Below, in pieces: positions 40,100 through 50,501 of a DNA stretch of 64,000 nucleotides (its first letter is position 1; each line of letters opens with the position of its first letter). This stretch comes from Pseudofrankia coriaricola (GTDB lineage Bacteria > Actinomycetota > Actinomycetes > Frankiales > Frankiaceae). Made by a program: the position numbers and the translations under genes. The stretch spans positions 1 to 64,000 of the forward strand of contig NZ_MBLO01000213.1 in NCBI RefSeq assembly GCF_001854805.1, in the 5' to 3' direction. The notes beneath the pieces are model-generated. The model saw only the letters and a list, made by a program, of their open reading frames with translations, searched no databases and was not told where the DNA came from.

Positions 40100-40331
40100 G
40101 TCGCGCTACCTCCGCCTTCTCGTCCCGCTACGGACTTTTGTCCAGCTATGACTCCCGGCCCCATCGCCCGTCGGACCGGGCGCACTTCCAGCTCGACGGT
40201 AGGTCACTTCCACCGCCTCGTCTCGCCGACCTCGGACGCCGCGGCGTTCCGCCACAGATCTGGCGAACCGTGCGCGGCCCGGAGATGCTGATCGGGATGC
40301 TGATCGCGTCCTTCCCGGAAGGAGGGATCAC

Positions 40332-41930
40332 GTGGCGGGCACGGACGGTCACTGGCGGCCCGACGACCCGGCCGGCGCTCCTGAACGGGATCACGTCGGC
40401 TCGGCGCGAAACCCCGACGACCCGGACGGCCCACTCACACGCCTGCTGACCGCCGCGTCCGGGGCGGCGCGCCGGCTGCTCGCCCGGCCGGGCGGCCGGA
40501 TCCTGGTCACGGTGGGCGCCGTCGTGCTGCTCGCGGGCGCGGGCGGCGCCGTCTGGTTCGCCACGGCCGACCCGCCGCCCACCGGCCCCAGCTGCGACGG
40601 AGCCGGCGTCGTCTGCTCCCGCACGGCGCGGTTCGCCGCCCAGACGGACCCTGACCGCGCCATTCTGAACCTGTCCGGCGCCCCCGCCGTCGCCGGCGCC
40701 GGCGCCGTCGGCGAGAGCTACGTGACCACCCGTCCGGTCGACTCGCTGCCGCCGCCGCCCTCCGGCGGCCGGGACGACTGCGCGGGACGGGCCGCCTGGG
40801 CCGCATCGGTCGGCGCGGCCCAGGCCGACATCTCGCCGGTGCGACTGGACGTCAGCGCCCGCCGGGATGTGCCGGTCGAGGTGCTCGGCTTCGCGGTCCA
40901 CATCGACGCCAGCCGTGTCGACGAGCCCGAGGGCGCCCTGCTCACATGCACGGGTGCGGCGCGGCCGGACCGGTACTCCCACCCTGTCCATCAGCTCCCG
41001 CAGGCGCGGGCGCTGGCCCGGTCCGAGGCGGTGCTGCTCGACCTCGCGCGCACCACGTCCGAGCTGATCCCGCCGCGGCCGGACGTCGCCGCCGTCACCG
41101 TCCCGCCATCCCCGCGCACGGTCGAGGTGGCGCCGGGGCGGACCGAGTCGATCCTCGTCGCAGGCCTCGCCGGCGGCTGTGACTGCCGGTGGCGGTTGGA
41201 AGTCTCGCTGGTGGTGGACGGTGAGCGGCAGGTGGTCACGGTCGGCCGGGATGGCGCCCGTCTCGGCCCGGCGGATAGCAACCCGGGGCAACCGCCGTTC
41301 CGGACGGTGTCGTCGACGATGCTCACCCCGTACCGCTACCTCGAGGGCCGCTGGCAGCCGGCCGAGCTTCCCCTGGGCGCCGCCCAGCCGGTCTGCCCGC
41401 TGCTGCCGTCCACCGAGATCGCGGCCGCGTTCGGCTGGCAGACAGCCGACTCCGTCCCGTTCTTCCAGACCAACGCGTTGGAGAGCGACGCCGTGGGCGC
41501 CTCCGGCCGGCTGGCGCGCGGGGTGTCCTGCGCCTGGCAGGCCGACCCGGACCGTTACGGCCGGGGCAATCTCGACGTCGCCCTGCTGGAGCTCGGGGAC
41601 GTCGACGCCGCCCGCGCCGAGTTCGAGGCCCAGCGGGCGCTGCTCACGAGCGAGCCAGCCCTGTTCGACTGCGACCCGGGGTCGGCCGCCGGGAGCCTGG
41701 CGCCGGTCCCGGTCCCGGTCGCCGGGCTGGGCGACGACGCGGTCCGCACACCGGGCAGGCTCATCGCCCTGGCCGGTATGAAGGTCGTCCACGTCGAGCT
41801 GTGCTCCGCGCCGCTGCCCGACCCGAACCAGCCCTCGCCGTCCACGCCGACGCCGCCGTCGACCACCTCGGGAGTGGTCGGCGACCCGGCCGCCCTCGCC
41901 CGCCTGGCCCGTGTGGCCCTCGCCGCATAG
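40332..41930 (+). CDS. Membrane-anchored protein, paralogue of the 31.9-kb gene
   Basis: A 532-residue protein of unknown function: cytoplasmic N-terminus, one TM segment (about 55-77), then a large extracytoplasmic part. DDCAGRAAWAASVGAA and CDCRWRLEVSLVVDGERQVV (about 283) match the other paralogue. Both have about ten spaced cysteines, and the closing region is Pro/Thr-rich. The GTG at 40332 has the strong RBS AAGGAGG. The surrounding genes are unrelated, so the pair probably reflects duplication around the nnr-tsa block. Confidence 0.82.
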   Translation: MAGTDGHWRPDDPAGAPERDHVGSARNPDDPDGPLTRLLTAASGAARRLLARPGGRILVTVGAVVLLAGAGGAVWFATADPPPTGPSCDGAGVVCSRTARFAAQTDPDRAILNLSGAPAVAGAGAVGESYVTTRPVDSLPPPPSGGRDDCAGRAAWAASVGAAQADISPVRLDVSARRDVPVEVLGFAVHIDASRVDEPEGALLTCTGAARPDRYSHPVHQLPQARALARSEAVLLDLARTTSELIPPRPDVAAVTVPPSPRTVEVAPGRTESILVAGLAGGCDCRWRLEVSLVVDGERQVVTVGRDGARLGPADSNPGQPPFRTVSSTMLTPYRYLEGRWQPAELPLGAAQPVCPLLPSTEIAAAFGWQTADSVPFFQTNALESDAVGASGRLARGVSCAWQADPDRYGRGNLDVALLELGDVDAARAEFEAQRALLTSEPALFDCDPGSAAGSLAPVPVPVAGLGDDAVRTPGRLIALAGMKVVHVELCSAPLPDPNQPSPSTPTPPSTTSGVVGDPAALARLARVALAA

Positions 41931-42062
41931 CGGCAGGTGCCGCGCGGTTCCGCGGGCTGGCGACCCGGTCGGCGACGTACCCGTGTCGCTGTCGATCGTC
42001 TACGTCGCCGGCGCGCTTGCGGCGTGGCGGCCACCATGCTCGCCCAGCTCACGCGAGTCGTG

Positions 42063-44594
42063 TCAGTGGGTCACCGCCGTGTGACGGTCCGGCTCAGCCG
42101 GCGCCGATGACGGGCGAGGCACCCGCCCCGCCTGTGCGCCGGACGGCTCATGCGCCACCGCAAGATCAAGGATGCGCTCCAGCAGCTCGCGCGGCGTGGC
42201 CGGCTCCTCCTCCGCCAGTCCCTGGTGGTAGAAGACCGTCGCCGGGGTGAGGCCGGGCAGGCTGTTCGCCTCAATAACGATGATCTCGCCGGTCTCCCGG
42301 TGCATGAACGCGTCGATGCGGCCGTAACCCGCCATCCCAAGAGCATTCGCGACGCGCGCGATGCGGGTCTTCGCCGTCTCGACGGCCTCGGGCTGGACCC
42401 GTCCCAGCGGAGCGGTCGGCGGTGGAGTGATGTTGATGCCCGTACCGCCCATGAACTTCTCCTCCAGGCTGAGGATGCCCAGGTCGGCGATCGCCAGGCT
42501 GGGATTCATCGCGGCCATGTGTCCCTCGGGCCCGATCACCCCGACGGTGACCTCGATCCAGCCGGTGTCCCGTTGCCGGCCCCAGGTCAGCCTGCTCGCG
42601 CCCGTGCCGCCCGTGCCGCCCGTGCCCGTGCCGTCGGTGCCGTCGGGGCCGTCGGCCACGCGCACGTCGTCCGTCTCGATGAATTCCTCGAAAAGGAGAT
42701 GGCCGCCTCGCTGGGTCGGAAGTTCGATGATCTGCCCAGAGGTCAGCAGGGAGAACTCGTCGCCGCTCAGGCGGGTGGCGCCCGCGTTCAGGAGCCGGAG
42801 ATACCGGCCGAGATCGGCCGCCGTGCCGAGCGGGACGACCCCGGCCGAGCAGCCGTCGTCGAGCGGCTTGACAATAACCCGCTGACCGCCGCAGTGATCG
42901 AGGATTTCGCCCCACAGCGCGGCCACCGCCTCGGCATCCGCCGCCGCGGGAGTCTCCATCCGCAGCCTGCGCGCGGTGTAGATGCCCTCGTCAGCAAGCT
43001 CGCCGACGATCTCCCCGGTCGCGTATTTGTCCATGCAGCGGCGGGACGCCTCCGGGCCCGAGCCGTTGTACCGGACCCCGCGGCGGTCGAGCATCGCCTG
43101 CAGGGTGCCGTTCTCGCCCATTCCGCCGTGCAGCGCGATGAAGACCAGGTCGTTTCGGTCGAGGAACTCGTCCATGGTCATGCGCTCGGGCGGGCTCGCG
43201 GGCGCGTTCAGGGCCGCGTCCGCGAGTCCGAGACGCTTGCGGATCGGGTCCGCGAGCGCGTGCCGCTTCGGTTCGTCCCGCTGCCCGCTCCGGCACGCCT
43301 CAAGAATCTCCTCGACGGAATGACGCAGCGCCGATGAGTACGACAGCCGCCAGACCGAGCCGTCGGGGTCGAGCAGGTGGGGCCGGGGCAGGTAGCGGCT
43401 GGAGCCCAGAAGCTTGAGCCAGACGTTCGTCCCGCTCAGGACCGAGACCTGCCGCTCGGCCGTCGCACCGCCGAACAGGACCGCGACGGGACGCCGCTGG
43501 CCGGTCGCGGCCGTATCGGCTGGTTCCGGCTCCTCCCAGGTAGTTCCCGCACGCCTGGCGGCCGTACGCAGGACGAGCCGAAGGATGTCGCCGTGGGTCA
43601 GCCCGATCTGAGCGGCCTGGACGAACAGGAAGCTGTTCTGCTCCATCCCGCTGATCAGATTCACATCGGAAACCACCAGCGTGCCGTCGGGCTGCAGCCA
43701 GCCGTCGATCCGCGCGAAGTCCCGAAGGCCGAGCACCCGGAAGACGTCCTCCGAGAGGCCTCGCACCTCCGCGGTGACGTCCAGGCCCCAAGACGGCGGG
43801 CAGCGGTAGTGGACGTCGTCGCTGGCCAGGTATTTCCGCCGGTAGTCGAAGATCTCGTCGTCACTCGACATGTTGTTGAGCTGGATCTCGACCGGGATGA
43901 GAGCGACCGGTCCGGACAGCCCGTCGACCACGACGGTCGTGACCTCGGTCCCCGACATCCACGGCTGCGCCAGGACCCGCTCGTACCGCCCGAGCAGCAT
44001 ACGGAGAACCCCGCCCGCGGCGGCCAAGCCGGCGACGACGTGAACGTCGATGCTGGACCCGCCCTGGGCGGGCTTCAGGACCAGTTTCCCGGACTGCTCG
44101 AACGCCGCGGCCAGGGTGGCGTCAACGTCCGCGTCCGGCATGTCACGGGTGAAGAGCGTGGATGGCACGGTCCTGATGCCATGGGCACCGAGAGCCTGGC
44201 AGGCGCGGAACTTGTCGAAGGCCACCTCACATGCGGCGGAACCCGAGCCGACGAACGGGACGCCGACCTCTTCCAGGAGCGCCTGCAGCCGCCCGTCCTC
44301 GCCGAAGGCGCCGTGCATCGCCGGGAACACCAGATCGACCGTGCGCAGCCTGTCCGCCAGCGCCTCCGGCGAAAGCCTCGAGCCGGGGTCAAGCTTGAAA
44401 TCGAAATCCGACGGCGTGTTGCAGTACAGCAGGCTGGGCGATATCGCGTACGGGTCACAGCGGCGGTCGAAATAAATGACCTCACCCAGACGGACGGTCC
44501 CGTCGGCCAGATGGTCAGCCACCGAACGTGCCGAGTTGAGCGAGATTCCGCGCTCCTCGGACGGACCACCCAGAAGCAACGCGACGTTGATCAT
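42063..44594 (-). CDS. Tandem D-alanine-D-alanine ligase (two ATP-grasp Ddl modules)
   Basis: 843 residues made of two complete Ddl-like modules. Module 1 (about 1-365): LLLGGPSEERGISLNSA, VFPAMHGAFGEDG, LVLKPAQGGSSIDV and the metal-site SDVNLISGM. Module 2 (about 370-825): VLFGGATAERQVSVLSG, FIALHGGMGENG, VIVKPLDDGCSAGVV and IEANSLPGLTP. Both N-terminal Glu residues and the E/D-x-N metal ligands are kept. Module 1 has ISG where LPG is usual, suggesting altered substrate choice. The reaction is D-Ala + D-Ala (or D-X) + ATP. A (GT)-rich DGTDGTGTGGTGGTG loop lies in module 2. It is the last gene of the Lrp-aminotransferase-MurF/Alr set. Confidence 0.9.
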   Translation of the reverse strand: MINVALLLGGPSEERGISLNSARSVADHLADGTVRLGEVIYFDRRCDPYAISPSLLYCNTPSDFDFKLDPGSRLSPEALADRLRTVDLVFPAMHGAFGEDGRLQALLEEVGVPFVGSGSAACEVAFDKFRACQALGAHGIRTVPSTLFTRDMPDADVDATLAAAFEQSGKLVLKPAQGGSSIDVHVVAGLAAAGGVLRMLLGRYERVLAQPWMSGTEVTTVVVDGLSGPVALIPVEIQLNNMSSDDEIFDYRRKYLASDDVHYRCPPSWGLDVTAEVRGLSEDVFRVLGLRDFARIDGWLQPDGTLVVSDVNLISGMEQNSFLFVQAAQIGLTHGDILRLVLRTAARRAGTTWEEPEPADTAATGQRRPVAVLFGGATAERQVSVLSGTNVWLKLLGSSRYLPRPHLLDPDGSVWRLSYSSALRHSVEEILEACRSGQRDEPKRHALADPIRKRLGLADAALNAPASPPERMTMDEFLDRNDLVFIALHGGMGENGTLQAMLDRRGVRYNGSGPEASRRCMDKYATGEIVGELADEGIYTARRLRMETPAAADAEAVAALWGEILDHCGGQRVIVKPLDDGCSAGVVPLGTAADLGRYLRLLNAGATRLSGDEFSLLTSGQIIELPTQRGGHLLFEEFIETDDVRVADGPDGTDGTGTGGTGGTGASRLTWGRQRDTGWIEVTVGVIGPEGHMAAMNPSLAIADLGILSLEEKFMGGTGINITPPPTAPLGRVQPEAVETAKTRIARVANALGMAGYGRIDAFMHRETGEIIVIEANSLPGLTPATVFYHQGLAEEEPATPRELLERILDLAVAHEPSGAQAGRVPRPSSAPAEPDRHTAVTH

Positions 44595-45073
44595 CTTTCC
44601 TCGTCTCGAGTGTGGCCCTGGGGCCGTCCATCCGCTCGGGGTCAGTCGCGTGAGATCGGCCTAGGCCAGCTCACAGGCGTCCCAGCTCCCAGGTTCACAC
44701 CCCCGGGCCCGCTCGCACGATCCTAGGTCCGCCAGATGAAGACCGCTCCGACACCTTGCGGGAGTGCGCTACTTCCGTTACCGATGGTAACGGACCTCTC
44801 AAAGCGGCTCGGGTCGTCGATGTCGAAACGTGCCCGCGAGTGGCAGCGGTACAGCACGGTTTCAAGCACCGAGGGCCGATCCCGTTCAGGTTGATGGAGA
44901 TCTACGCCAAGCCGTGCACCGCGTACCGTTCAGAAAGACCGGGTAGCACTGCACGGTGGATGGATACGGAAACGAGGCAAAAGGTGACAGCGGACACCTT
45001 CGGCGTTCTCCAGCTCGAGATGGTGCCGCCCCGGTTTGGCGCTGTCCGCCACGCCTGGACGGAGCCCGGCTGA
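44595..45073. other. Intergenic region in the D-alanine cassette, with operator-like dyad
   Basis: 479 bases between the MurF-Alr fusion and the tandem ligase. CCGTTACC-GAT-GGTAACGG (44775-44793) is a perfect 8-bp dyad and may be a regulator site. A plus-strand frame (44756-45073) has mixed codon use and no recognisable family, so I do not call it a gene. Confidence 0.5.
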
Positions 45074-47575
45074 CTAGTGCTGTGTGAAGACCCGCTGCAC
45101 CCGCGGACCGACGCCGGTCAGCAGTTCGTGCGGGACGGTCCCCATCGCCTCGGCCGCCTGTTCGATTGGAAGCGAAAATCCGGCGTACTGGCCGAAGACG
45201 AGGACGTCGTTGCCGAGATGGGCATCGGGATGTTCGGAGATGTCGATCGCCATGGAGTCCATCGACACCGAGCCCGCGATGTTGCATCGCCGGCCGTTGA
45301 CCAGGACGAACCCGACGTTGCTGAACGACCGAGGCACCGAGTCGTAGTAGCCCGCCGGAATGAGGGCGATACGCCGTCCGGGCACCGTGGCGCGGTACCG
45401 ACCGCCGTAGCCCGCCCAGTCACCGGGCTCCATGTCGTGGATCTCGACGATCCGACTCACCAGGCCGATCGCCGGCGTGAGACTGACCATCGACGCGGTC
45501 GCCGCCGACGGATGGATCCCATATAGGCCGAGACCGATGCGGACCATGTCGAGCCGCGCCTCGGGAAAGCGCACCGTGCCGGCCGTCGCCGCCGCGTGTC
45601 GCAGCACGTTACGGAAACCGAGCTCGGAGGCCGCCGCCCACACTTTCTGGAACTTGTCGAGCTGCTCCTGGGTGAGCCCGTCGTCCTTGGGGTCGTCGGC
45701 GCATCCGAGGTGGGTCATCAGGCCTGTCAGACGCAGACCACTTCCGCTGATGCGCTTCAGGGCGTCGATGGCCAGGTCCGGGTGAAGACCGGTGCGGTGC
45801 ATCCCGGAGTCGACCTCCAGATGCACCTCGATGGGGCGGCCAAGGCGGCCCGCCGTGCTGACGACCGCGTCCAGCACCTCCTGGGAGTAGACCAGCGGCG
45901 TCAGGCCGTGCCGCACCATCTTCTCGATCTCCTCGGGCAGCCCGAGGAAAACAAGGATGGGCATCTGGACCCGGGCCCGGCGCAGCGTGATCCCCTCATC
46001 AGTGGTCGCCACGCCCAACCAGTCGACACCCGTCTCGCGCAGGCAGTGCGCCAGGCTGACCGGATTGGTGCCGTAGGCGTCGGCCTTGACCACGCCCATG
46101 AGCCTGGTGTGCGAGCCGACCATCTGGCGGAAGGCGGCGACGTTGCTTCTTACCGCCGCGAGGTCCACGAACATTCGGGTCGGTGCCGTGTTCTCCACCA
46201 GCCGGCGCCATACTCCGGTGACGAGGGTCTCCCGCACGGCGTACACGAATGCGACGTCGTCCGGTGTGAGCTCGGTTGCGACGAACTCCCTCATCCGGTC
46301 CGTGTCGGCGAACAACCGCGCCCGGGGGCCGCCGGTCTCGGTTCCGAGCCCGGCTGTCACGGCCTCGTGCGCCTTGGCCTGGAGACCGCAGACAACGTCC
46401 ACCCGCTCCGCGAGCAGGATAGATCCCACCCGGCGCAGGTCTTCCTCGGCGACCTCCCGGTCGAAAGGGTCGGCCAGCAGAACGAAGAGACGGCCCGTCG
46501 CGCCCAGCAACGTTCGCGCGGTCCGGATCGCGCTGCTGAGCGCCAGCGGGTCGATGGTCGCCACGTCACCGACGACCGTGGCGCCATCGGCGCGACGCCA
46601 CATCTCCATCCGCGTCGACGTCGGTGTGTAGTCCGCAAACGTGTCGAGCAGCGAACGAGGCTCGGCGCCCAGCAGTGTCGCGGCCGACATGGCGAGCCCG
46701 ATGTCGCCGAGCACTTCGCGCGAAGGCGTTGGCAGCACGAGATCGCGCGACAGCCCATCAGGGAGGGTGGCCGTGACCAGCAGGCCCTGCCGGACATGCG
46801 TGGGCTGGGACAGCCTTGGCAGCTCGGGGGACTCGCCGGCCACCACGACGGGAACCCCGGCCGACGCCTCGGCCCAGCCCCGCAGCTCGGCGTCGTCGGC
46901 CCCGAGCAGCACCGACCCGCCGGCCGGCAGCTCCGTCACCATGGAGAGCAGCTCGCGCGCGTAGGACTCGCGGTCCCCGAAGTTCTGCAAATGCCGCGTT
47001 CCCAGGTTGGTGAGAACGGCCATGTCCGGCCGCACCATCCGTCGGAGGCGTTCCATCTCACCAGTGCGGGTGGCGGCAGCCTCGAACACGGCGATCTCGG
47101 CATCCGGCGGACAGTCGAGCATGGCGAGCGCCACTCCAAGCTGGCTGTTGTAGCTGCCCGAACTGCCGTAGACGTGCCGCGTCGCGCCGATGGCGTGAAC
47201 CAGGGCATCCTTGGTCACCGTCTTGCCGTTGCTTCCAATGACCGCTACCACTGTCGCGGCCAGCCTGGAACGCCACCAAGCCGCCAGCCGCTGCAGCGCG
47301 GCGAGCGGGTCCGGCACCACGATCAGCGGACCGGACACAGGGTCGGGAAGGCGGAACCCGGCCGAGACGACCGCGGCGACCGCGCCGCCCGCCAGCGCTC
47401 TCGACACGAACTGGTGCCCGTCCAGACGGCCCCGCAGGGCGAAGAACACGCTGTCCGACTGAAGCCGCTCGGAATGGATCGCCACGCTGTTGATGGACAG
47501 GTCGTCGTCATCGCCGGCGGCGAGCAGCTCACCCTCGACGATCGAGACCAGCATTCCCAACGGGATCCGATCCAT
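45074..47575 (-). CDS. MurF-type ligase fused to alanine racemase
   Basis: An 833-residue fusion. The MurF-like part (1-455) has the ATP loop GSNGKTVTKD (114-123) and LTNLGTRHLQNFG; it would add D-Ala-D-Ala to UDP-MurNAc-tripeptide. The alanine racemase part (about 463-833) has the PLP lysine in GVVKADAYG (near 497), YGIHPS, IPAGYYDSVPR with the catalytic Tyr, and GSVSMDSMAID. Such fusions are known mainly from Bacteroidetes. The ATG at 47575 has AGGAGGGCGA just upstream; the longer frame is not needed. It sits between the aminotransferase and the tandem ligase, all on the minus strand. Confidence 0.9.
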   Translation of the reverse strand: MDRIPLGMLVSIVEGELLAAGDDDDLSINSVAIHSERLQSDSVFFALRGRLDGHQFVSRALAGGAVAAVVSAGFRLPDPVSGPLIVVPDPLAALQRLAAWWRSRLAATVVAVIGSNGKTVTKDALVHAIGATRHVYGSSGSYNSQLGVALAMLDCPPDAEIAVFEAAATRTGEMERLRRMVRPDMAVLTNLGTRHLQNFGDRESYARELLSMVTELPAGGSVLLGADDAELRGWAEASAGVPVVVAGESPELPRLSQPTHVRQGLLVTATLPDGLSRDLVLPTPSREVLGDIGLAMSAATLLGAEPRSLLDTFADYTPTSTRMEMWRRADGATVVGDVATIDPLALSSAIRTARTLLGATGRLFVLLADPFDREVAEEDLRRVGSILLAERVDVVCGLQAKAHEAVTAGLGTETGGPRARLFADTDRMREFVATELTPDDVAFVYAVRETLVTGVWRRLVENTAPTRMFVDLAAVRSNVAAFRQMVGSHTRLMGVVKADAYGTNPVSLAHCLRETGVDWLGVATTDEGITLRRARVQMPILVFLGLPEEIEKMVRHGLTPLVYSQEVLDAVVSTAGRLGRPIEVHLEVDSGMHRTGLHPDLAIDALKRISGSGLRLTGLMTHLGCADDPKDDGLTQEQLDKFQKVWAAASELGFRNVLRHAAATAGTVRFPEARLDMVRIGLGLYGIHPSAATASMVSLTPAIGLVSRIVEIHDMEPGDWAGYGGRYRATVPGRRIALIPAGYYDSVPRSFSNVGFVLVNGRRCNIAGSVSMDSMAIDISEHPDAHLGNDVLVFGQYAGFSLPIEQAAEAMGTVPHELLTGVGPRVQRVFTQH

Positions 47576-47772
47576 TCGCCCTCCTTCACCCTCTACCGCA
47601 AGACTAGAGCGCGTCCACGAAGGCGGCGACTCAGCCTCCGCGACGAAGCAACGGGTGGCACGGATCAACCACGGGTAGTAGTCACCTGCAGGCAACCGAT
47701 GAGGAGAGCGGCCCCTCGACGACCGCGGTCGGCAGCAGGGCGGTAGTCGCCACGACGGATGGCGGCCGTGAT

Positions 47773-48927
47773 TCAGCGCAACGTGCTCAGAAAACGATCC
47801 ATCCGTTCCAGGGCTTCCTCAATCAGCGGCAGGGCCGTCGCGTAGCAACAACGGACATGCCCCTCGCCTGAGGGACCGAAGACATGGCCGGGCACGACGG
47901 CCACCCGCTGCTCAACCAGCAACCGCTCCGCGAACTCGTCGGAGCTCAGTCCCGTCGACGCCACCGATGGGAACGCGTAAAAGGCGCCATGCGGTTCTTC
48001 GCAGCTCAGTCCTAGATCATTAAGGCCCTTCACGAAGAACCGTCGGCGGCGGTCGTAGTCGACCACCATCTCGGTCACCTCTTCACGGCCACCGCGCAGT
48101 GCCTCGAGAGCCGCCAGCTGCGACACGTGCGGGGCACACAGCATCGTGTACTGGTGGATGCGGCCCGCGAGCTCGACGATCTCGGCTGGCGCGCAGAGGT
48201 AGCCGACGCGCCACCCGGTCATGGCGTAGGCCTTCGAGAAGCCGCCGAGCAGGACGGTGCGGTCACGCGCGCCCGGCAGGCTGGGGACGCTGACATGGGG
48301 AACGCCGTAGACCAGCTGCTCGTAGATCTCGTCCGAGACGATGTAGAGATCATGGCGCACCGCGAGCTCGACCAGAGCGGTCAGCGAGTCGATGGTCTGG
48401 ACCGCGCCCGTCGGATTGGCCGGGGACGCGACGAGGATCGCCTTCGTCCGCTCCGTCACAGCCGCCTCGATCGCGTCCACGTCGACCTGAAAGGCGGAGT
48501 CGGCGGACGGCACCAGCACCGGCACGCCCCCGGCGAACGAGACGCACGGACCGTACGCGACGTAGCAGGGCTCCGGGATGATGACCTCGTCGCCGGCGTC
48601 CAGCAGCGCGCGCAGCGCGATATCGAGGCCCTGAGAGACACCCGAGGTGATGAGGCACTCTCCGTCGGGCTGATAGCTCGCGCCGCACCGCCTCTCGAGG
48701 TCGAGGCAGACAGCCTCTCGGAGCTCGATCAGACCGGCATTCGACGTGTAGTTCGTGTAGCCGTGCTCGAATGCGTAGATGGCCGCTTCGCGAACATTCC
48801 ACGGTGTCGTGAAGTCGGGTTCGCCGACGCCGAGCGAGATCACCGAGTCCATGTTGGCCGCGATGTCGAAGAATCGACGGATACCCGACGGCGGGCAGGC
48901 CGCCACGATCGAGTTCAGCGGTTTCAT
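47773..48927 (-). CDS. Class I/II PLP aminotransferase (AlaT/AspC type)
   Basis: A 384-residue fold-type I aminotransferase. LGVGEPDFTTP, YTNYTSNAGLIELREAV, ASPANPTGAV and the PLP lysine Lys232 in GGFSKAYAMTGWRVGY are intact, as is the C-terminal Arg of GHVRCCYA. The ATG overlaps the lrp-like stop by four bases. Lrp/AsnC-aminotransferase pairs of this type (yugG-yugH in Bacillus) are linked to alanine. Alanine formation from pyruvate is a reasonable guess given the racemase next door. The exact substrate is not provable from sequence. Confidence 0.92.
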   Translation of the reverse strand: MKPLNSIVAACPPSGIRRFFDIAANMDSVISLGVGEPDFTTPWNVREAAIYAFEHGYTNYTSNAGLIELREAVCLDLERRCGASYQPDGECLITSGVSQGLDIALRALLDAGDEVIIPEPCYVAYGPCVSFAGGVPVLVPSADSAFQVDVDAIEAAVTERTKAILVASPANPTGAVQTIDSLTALVELAVRHDLYIVSDEIYEQLVYGVPHVSVPSLPGARDRTVLLGGFSKAYAMTGWRVGYLCAPAEIVELAGRIHQYTMLCAPHVSQLAALEALRGGREEVTEMVVDYDRRRRFFVKGLNDLGLSCEEPHGAFYAFPSVASTGLSSDEFAERLLVEQRVAVVPGHVFGPSGEGHVRCCYATALPLIEEALERMDRFLSTLR

Positions 48928-49415
48928 GGAATGACCGGGAGGCGACGGTCGGGCTCGGGATCAAGGAAGAGCTCGCCGTCGTCCTTGTACGTCTTCAGCA
49001 CGAAGTGAGTCGACGTCGATCTCACTCGTTCGATCGTCGCGAGCTTCTGCGCGACGAAGTCCGCCACCGTGCGCATCGTGTTTCCCGACACGATGCACCG
49101 CAGGTCCTGGGTACCGGAGATCAAATATACTGCCCGCACGTCAGAGAACCGCGATATCCTGGCCGCGACATCGTCAAAGCCCACACCCCGCGACGGGGCG
49201 ACGGAGACGTCGATCAGGGCCGTGACCGTGTCCGTGCCCTCGAGCTCCCGCAACTTGTCATGGTCGATGACCGTCTTGTAGCGACGGATCACACCGCTCT
49301 GCTCCCACGACGCGATCTGGGCACGAATCTGTTCGACTGGCAGACCCGTGAGATCGCTTATCCGCTCGGGGCTTGCCTGCGCGTCGGACCGCAGAATCTC
49401 CAACACTTCCAGCAC
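48924..49415 (-). CDS. Lrp/AsnC-family transcriptional regulator
   Basis: A 163-residue regulator: winged helix-turn-helix (about 1-50; LEILRSDAQASPERISDLTG, then GVIRRYKTVID) and an AsnC/RAM ligand-binding domain (about 65-145; TALIDVSV, VRAVYLISGTQDL). It probably senses an amino acid such as alanine and controls the coupled aminotransferase and downstream D-alanine genes. The GTG at 49415 gives family length; ATG at 49472 is an alternative. Confidence 0.9.
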   Translation of the reverse strand: MLEVLEILRSDAQASPERISDLTGLPVEQIRAQIASWEQSGVIRRYKTVIDHDKLRELEGTDTVTALIDVSVAPSRGVGFDDVAARISRFSDVRAVYLISGTQDLRCIVSGNTMRTVADFVAQKLATIERVRSTSTHFVLKTYKDDGELFLDPEPDRRLPVIP

Positions 49416-49744
49416 CGGACCAGCGTACTCCGGAGCCCACGACGGCGGCCCACACGCGGGACGGCTGGCCATGGAGCACGGACGACCCCGCGCGCGGCCC
49501 GAGCTGGGCTTCGCGGACAGGGTCATCCGGCCATGGGCGACTGACCATGGAGGGCGCCGCCCAGGCCAGCCATCGAAGGTGCGCGTTTCTCAGCGCCCTG
49601 CCGGCCGCCCTCCGGCAGCCCCGGTCCCAACGATCCCCCAGACGGTGCGCCCCATCCGGCCCGCCCTGCTCTTAGGGACCTCCCATGGGCTCGGATGCCC
49701 AGCCGCGCGGCAGCCCGCGACGCCGTTCCATCGACCAGTAAGCG

Positions 49745-49910
49745 CAACTCGGCCACAACTGGTGACAGCGCATCGGCGCAGCACCAGCCCGACCACGTCG
49801 TCAGCCCGGTCCAAGCCCCACCACCGCCATATGCCAGGGCCCGGCACCACGCGAGGAGGGCGCCCAGCGCCCGACACGGGGCGAGCGCGCCTAGCGCCTC
49901 GCCCCGGCTC
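49745..49910 (-). repeat. Interspersed repeat family 1, copy G
   Basis: Minus-strand copy with GGCGCTAGGCGCGC, hairpin GGGCGC-TGG-GCGCCC (plus 49858-49872), GTGGTGCCGGGCCCTGGCAT and GGTGGTGGGGCTTGGACC, ending in GATGCGCTGTCACC. Like copy F it lies between genes rather than directly after a stop codon. It fills part of the 49416-49976 gap. Confidence 0.75.
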
Positions 49911-49976
49911 GAGATCGTGTCGCCGAACGAGTAACCCACGGAAACGGACCGTGCGGCAGGTGCGTAGGATTGGGCG

Positions 49977-50501
49977 GTGATCATCAGGGTTTCCGGGGAC
50001 GGTCCGCACGACGAGGTCATCCTCACGCCGCTCGAGGCGGCCTTCACCGAGACCGCCTGCGCGGAGCTCGCGGGCGCCGAGACCTTCAGCCGCGGGGTCG
50101 GGCTCGCGCTCCTGGGCAGGGTCGCAGACCTGCGGATCCGGCCGAGCGACGCCTCCGGAACCGTCGATGACAGCCGCGAGTTCACCGTCAAGCTGTCGGT
50201 GGGCGAGGACGGGGCGCACCAGGACTGCACCTGCGAGCTCGCGTCCGCGACGGCGCTGTGCCAGCACGGTGTCGCGGTCGCGCTGGCCGCGACCGGCCTG
50301 ATCCAGGCCGACGACGACGAGGACGACCAGGACGACTACGTGCGCGCCGCCGTCGGCGTGTTCCTGGAGAGCCTGCCCAAGGCAGAGCTCGTCGATCTCG
50401 TGCTCGGCCTCGCCGACGACAACGAGGAGCTCGCGGACGCCCTCTGGGACGAGACCGTCCGCTGGTACCACGACCGAGCCACCAGCGAAGCGGCCGACTA
50501 G
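49977..50501 (+). CDS. SWIM zinc-finger domain protein
   Basis: A 174-residue protein. CTCELASATALCQHGVA is a SWIM finger (CxC...CxH; about residues 82-97) that binds zinc and often DNA or protein. An acidic DDDEDDQDD stretch follows, then a helical tail (ESLPKAELVDLVLGLADDNEEL) similar to SWIM-associated proteins. GTG start at 49977. It converges with glmS across a strong hairpin. Function unknown. Confidence 0.85.
   Translation: MIIRVSGDGPHDEVILTPLEAAFTETACAELAGAETFSRGVGLALLGRVADLRIRPSDASGTVDDSREFTVKLSVGEDGAHQDCTCELASATALCQHGVAVALAATGLIQADDDEDDQDDYVRAAVGVFLESLPKAELVDLVLGLADDNEELADALWDETVRWYHDRATSEAAD

Follow-up and report, generated by a model that had tools for sequence, protein, structure and literature searches.

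A putative horizontally acquired D-alanine-branch cassette in the place of the native alr gene in Pseudofrankia coriaricola

The cassette and its genes

The window analysed here, a stretch of 64,000 nucleotides from Pseudofrankia coriaricola (GCF_001854805.1, contig NZ_MBLO01000213.1, positions 1 to 64,000), carries four neighbouring genes that make up the cassette under study:

48924-49415, minus strand: Lrp/AsnC-family regulator, 163 aa from a GTG at 49415; Pfam AsnC_trans_reg at 47.8 bits
47773-48927, minus strand: class I aminotransferase; nearest NCBIfam model PRK07682, best PDB match 1dju
45074-47575, minus strand: MurF-like/alanine racemase (Alr) fusion, 833 aa, start at ATG 47575
42063-44594, minus strand: tandem D-Ala-D-Ala ligase (Ddl), gene ddl2, 843 aa, two Ddl-like domains

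Profile searches find all four minus-strand genes intact and bear out the families that a sequence-only reading of the locus had first given them, as well as the ATGA overlap between regulator and aminotransferase. The GTG start of the regulator is backed by a homologue in Dactylosporangium vinaceum at 69% identity, the mechanical ORF reaching 49526, and homologues of the fusion begin at the ATG at 47575, behind the ribosome-binding site GGAGGG, which speaks against a start at TTG 47695 further upstream. The G+C content of the cassette genes, 62-69%, is lower than that of the flanks (71-79%). Within the cassette, Rfam yielded no RNA element at gathering thresholds, sigma-70 and terminator scans performed no better than shuffle level, and two intergenic folds were not unusual; plasmid records held close relatives neither of the fusion nor of the tandem Ddl.

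The proposal of a single cassette under the regulator holds for the regulator and aminotransferase, which overlap, but not for ddl2, which lies downstream of the fusion across a gap of 479 nt and is absent from the syntenic locus of the sister genome G005; co-transcription is thus indicated for the first two genes only. Describing the set as a four-gene operon proved too strong, the tandem Ddl being missing from the G005 locus and the gene order differing in D. vinaceum. A chance grouping of the four genes is nonetheless excluded, since their homologues cluster in D. vinaceum and the core pair of fusion and tandem Ddl adjoins in four further genomes (G011, G059, G060, and G067). The regulator and aminotransferase are found with the fusion in three genomes from two genera; in other hosts they do not adjoin it.

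The B. subtilis AlaR/AlaT (YugG/YugH) pair acts in alanine synthesis, AlaT making L-Ala. The cassette resembles this pair in joining an Lrp-type regulator to a class I aminotransferase of a related subfamily, but differs in that its aminotransferase, with homologues at 96% identity in G005 and 74% in D. vinaceum, scores 540 bits against PRK07682, under the model cut-off of 620. The nearest solved structure to AlaT is 1DJU (PMC6522883), which is also the best PDB match of the cassette aminotransferase. A supply of L-Ala by this enzyme is plausible on the strength of its family relationships.

The native alr slot

The genes around the cassette are of housekeeping character. One flank holds ribosomal S9 and glmS, the opposite flank tsaE, tsaB, and tsaD. 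Between them, comparison with congeners delimits the following features:

41935-49910, no strand: replaced segment, 8.0 kb against a native-alr segment of 1.4 kb in the relative G006, bounded by blastn break points
41948-45065, no strand: tandem-Ddl sub-segment, 3.1 kb, absent from the syntenic G005 locus
49968-50501, plus strand: orf177, conserved next to native alr in the congeners, on the glmS side; without a Pfam match
40203-41930, plus strand: orf575, next to native alr on the tsaE side in most congeners but displaced in G007; without a Pfam match

Six congeners possess a single native alr between orf177/glmS and the orf575/tsa side, in the order S9-glmS-orf177-alr. The closest alr-bearing relative, G006, matches the window in its flanking gene order; G007 is rearranged beyond alr. 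DNA homology to G006 ends at 41934, just past the orf575 stop, and restarts at 49911, about 60 bp outside orf177. In G005 the slot measures 4.7 kb and holds the regulator, aminotransferase, and fusion at 94-96% identity, a genome search finding the tandem Ddl nowhere in that whole genome. To judge from these alignments, the native alr has been swapped out in place for the cassette.

The fusion as the only alanine racemase found

The Alr domain of the fusion scores 299 bits against TIGR00492, above the cut-off of 168, which assigns it to the alanine racemase family (fold-type III PLP). The PLP lysine K497 and catalytic tyrosine Y723 (833-aa numbering), aligned to the lysine and tyrosine of the racemases, are invariant in nine fusions. 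In a quick tree of 53 Alr domains, the seven actinobacterial fusions form one clade (support 100), which stands beside the Bacteroidota fusions (87) and apart from actinobacterial Alr (99). The predicted structure of the fusion is only of modest quality (pTM 0.48), so the domain folds alone were used from it. From its sequence, the Alr half is the predicted alanine racemase of the cell.

Two Alr family models find one Alr in this genome, namely the fusion, though the models failed a control by missing Corynebacterium glutamicum, which is known to possess an Alr, so that the sole-Alr result leans chiefly on a protein query. This query, a congener Alr, recovered the fusion alone in this genome (a draft of 280 contigs) and in G005, G011, D. 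vinaceum, G059, and G060, and a stand-alone Alr besides the fusion in G067, most of these other hosts being drafts or MAGs; G011 is a MAG labelled Frankia alni, of the same family as the window genome. A single-copy native alr surviving elsewhere in the window genome was considered and rejected on the results of the two family models and the congener query.

In the complete chromosome of D. vinaceum, too, the fusion is the only Alr found. The native alr site of this organism (nnrD / hydrolase gene) measures 83 bp as against 1,273 bp in a relative, a clean deletion, while six of six other Dactylosporangium genomes have two Alr genes each. The second of these adjoins a single-domain ddl in G465 and G466, of canonical type in G465; D. 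vinaceum is without such a gene, and the Ddls found in it are a VanA-type ligase and the tandem Ddl. D. vinaceum carries homologues of all four cassette genes within a 10-kb stretch, 60-74% identical to those of the window and arranged in a different order. Interspersed among them are a MarR gene and a gene for an IS605-type transposase (TnpB-like, L074 15455-16771), the latter a possible trace of mobility.

The fusion is rare: among 396 Actinomycetota genomes sampled, only that of the window has it, and none of the other 395 does. Rare co-occurrence elsewhere had been held to speak against a self-contained cassette, but the core pair recurs when the fusion is present. Among Actinomycetota hosts, the fusion and tandem Ddl together are associated with loss of the native Alr and often of the native Ddl, though the stand-alone Alr of G067 and the lack of a tandem Ddl beside the fusion of G005 indicate that the set is not obligate.

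The MurF half

Against the MurF model TIGR01143 the Mur domain scores 193.4 bits, under the cut-off of 288.6. The Mur fold is retained, as are the SYNSQ motif, common to the Bacteroidota fusions, and the P-loop GSNGKT, the only MurF motif retained throughout. The AKxE lysine is missing in six of six actinobacterial fusions and YNANP of the D-x-YNANP motif in all seven, with the His of the AHxE motif lost in three of six. The bifunctional MurF/Alr proteins of Bacteroidota (NF008897, PRK11930) are alike in domain order over most of their length, in the SYNSQ and E-x-GEM motifs, and in the grouping of their Alr domains with those discussed here. They differ in sharing only 25-27% identity, in the score of the cassette fusion against NF008897 (529.6 bits, under the equivalog cut-off of 804), and in keeping MurF motifs that the cassette fusion has lost: they have the AKxE lysine together with a YN or FN motif. 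The cassette fusion, moreover, stands in a genome that keeps a separate canonical MurF.

Such a canonical MurF is encoded elsewhere in this genome, and five other hosts (G005, G011, D. vinaceum, G059, and G067) have one too; a genome search did not find one in the G060 MAG. The MurF half would thus be a decayed, non-catalytic Mur domain, raising the question of what role a Mur-ligase fold plays without its chemistry. Loading of the dipeptide onto UDP-MurNAc-tripeptide, as the sequence-only reading had assigned to the fusion, is unsupported given the lost motifs and the ordinary MurF kept elsewhere.

G005 has, besides the MurF on C95, a second MurF-like gene (C119:21390-22691) near a VanA-type ligase, and in an Acidimicrobiaceae MAG (L075 8861-14616) a canonical murF overlaps the tandem Ddl downstream while the fusion faces the tandem Ddl.

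The tandem Ddl

The 843-aa chain contains two complete D-Ala-D-Ala-ligase-like domains at about residues 1-350 and 365-815. Against TIGR01205 the whole chain scores 276 bits, above the cut-off of 245.65, and the single halves score below it (166 and 116). Residues for ATP, metal, and substrate are invariant across 12 full-length members in both the N half (K128, K174, E217, K254-Y255, R295, D297, N312) and the C half (K523, K576, E636, K713-F714, R759, D761, E775, N777). The predicted structure shows two ATP-grasp-type halves, with a confidence below 50 at residues 706-717, which cover F714. The N half aligns with solved Ddl over about 320 residues (VIA-align Z about 37, rmsd about 2.1); these VIA matches cover residues 1-351 only, the C half being judged from sequence. 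The protein is Ddl-like in both halves but departs from known D-Ala-D-Ala ligases in bearing two domains per chain, in having Asp (D310) for the metal-binding Glu in its Tyr-type first site, and in its Phe-type second site.

The latter difference concerns the omega-loop position, occupied by Y255 (Lys-Tyr) in the N half and F714 (Lys-Phe) in the C half in 12 of 12 full-length members, a sample biased towards Phe in that one of the two search patterns contained the Phe motif; L077 and L078, found via the other pattern and without the exact Phe pattern, nevertheless have Phe. In lactic acid bacteria, Phe at this site denotes a depsipeptide ligase and Tyr a dipeptide ligase (PMC5996685). With hosts that have no other Ddl, a Tyr-type N half, and a low-confidence model at 706-717 to set against the Phe, the enzyme may be of either specificity. 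A bolder reading, in which a two-headed Ddl family with differing sites (Tyr-type for dipeptide, Phe-type for depsipeptide or another D-X) and a pseudo-MurF-tethered racemase form a mobile D-Ala module that takes over the D-Ala and D-Ala-D-Ala steps and alters the stem-peptide end, is in our judgement unlikely.

The tandem Ddl belongs to a widespread two-domain family, with members in Actinomycetota, Acidimicrobiia, Opitutia (Verrucomicrobiota), candidate phyla bacteria, and one MAG each of Clostridium and Parachlamydiales. In 10 of 17 genomes tested no other Ddl match turned up, so that the tandem Ddl must perform the essential step there unless an enzyme was missed. The Parachlamydiales gene (L090 7629-9081) is frameshifted as read, or reflects an assembly error, with no other Ddl found in that MAG.

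The suggestion that the cassette replaces the housekeeping branch fares differently for its two enzymes. It is strongly supported for Alr, the fusion being the sole Alr found and lying in the native place. For Ddl it is supported in G011, G059, and G060, which have the tandem Ddl alone, with D. vinaceum adding the VanA-type ligase. It is not supported in this genome, where a canonical Ddl is retained along with a D-Ala-D-Lac ligase of VanA type, so that the tandem Ddl may be redundant here. The VanA-type ligase (611 bits, cut-off 550) directly follows a VanH (552 bits, cut-off 540) at C77:20950-21951 (L051 1824-3979), and a VanA-type-like ligase is also found in G005 (C119) as well as in D. 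vinaceum.

Origin and proposed roles

We consider it probable, at roughly 0.78, that a horizontally acquired D-alanine-branch cassette displaced the native alr at its own locus. The arrangement, built of known parts, would then be a horizontal displacement of the D-alanine branch that took place in situ for alr. In the proposed scheme, the AlaT-like aminotransferase, controlled by the Lrp-type regulator, would supply L-Ala, from which the Alr domain would make the D-Ala of the cell; the tandem Ddl would ligate D-Ala with D-Ala, its Phe-type second site possibly accepting another D-substrate. The degenerate MurF half, probably non-ligating, may be a structural or regulatory part, and the dipeptide would still be loaded by the canonical dcw MurF.

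A different purpose would be self-protection, the cassette equipping the cell with an extra or drug-insensitive Alr and Ddl to withstand D-cycloserine or another D-Ala analogue made by the organism or its neighbours. The two targets of D-cycloserine, Alr and Ddl, are the very parts that are mobile here, the native Ddl is retained beside the tandem Ddl in this genome, and additional Ddl copies raise D-cycloserine resistance (PMC7691350). The integron-borne resistance ligases ddl6 and ddl7 of that study are likewise mobile Ddls beside a housekeeping Ddl, but are single-domain, have no Alr partner, and lie in a different context. As the native Alr has been lost rather than supplemented, and the window neighbours scanned are housekeeping genes among which no inhibitor-biosynthesis genes were recognised, we regard self-protection as rather unlikely. 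Alternatively, the tandem Ddl might make D-Ala-D-Lac, D-Ala-D-Ser, or a further D-Ala-D-X, which would alter the stem-peptide end and confer glycopeptide tolerance. This reading draws on the consistent Lys-Phe for Lys-Tyr in the second domain and on its depsipeptide association in lactic acid bacteria (PMC5996685). With a Tyr-type first domain, the search bias described above (L077 and L078 aside), a cassette that lacks homologues of VanH and VanX, and a dedicated VanH and VanA-type ligase elsewhere in this genome, it seems quite improbable.

Still further from the evidence is an active MurF-Alr that would form with Ddl a self-contained second branch from pyruvate to UDP-MurNAc-pentapeptide. 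The retained P-loop and Mur fold and the intact motifs of the Bacteroidota fusions are consistent with it, but the lysine, YNANP, and His losses and the canonical MurF, present here and in those other fusion hosts that yielded one, make it very unlikely. Aminotransferases, racemases, and ATP-grasp ligases also occur together in clusters for D-Ala-containing small molecules; a cassette at the native alr slot within the conserved glmS-tsaE housekeeping neighbourhood, containing the sole Alr found and with no tailoring or transport genes recognised nearby, renders such a biosynthetic role barely credible, and the dipeptide product once suggested for the locus gains no support.

Alr, which cell-wall building requires, and Ddl are essential antibiotic targets and usually regarded as stable housekeeping genes. 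A foreign version in the native alr place, together with a clean deletion of the native gene in a second genus, offers a natural swap for studies of gene displacement and D-cycloserine sensitivity, and hosts in which a two-domain enzyme is the only Ddl make the function of the second site directly testable. The journals covered yielded no papers on MurF-Alr in Actinomycetota, on tandem Ddl, or on AlaR/AlaT function, which is weak evidence of absence.

Annotation tools that call such racemases vanT, or that trust 'bifunctional MurF' names, would mislead. The VanG-type vanT serine racemase shares the racemase fold (4ecl is among the fold matches of the fusion), but the cassette fusion is without a membrane domain. 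In plasmid records, Bacteroidota MurF-Alr fusions (L174, L175, and L176) carry the label vanT, a glycopeptide-resistance gene, on the basis of 34% identity; this is probably a misannotation.
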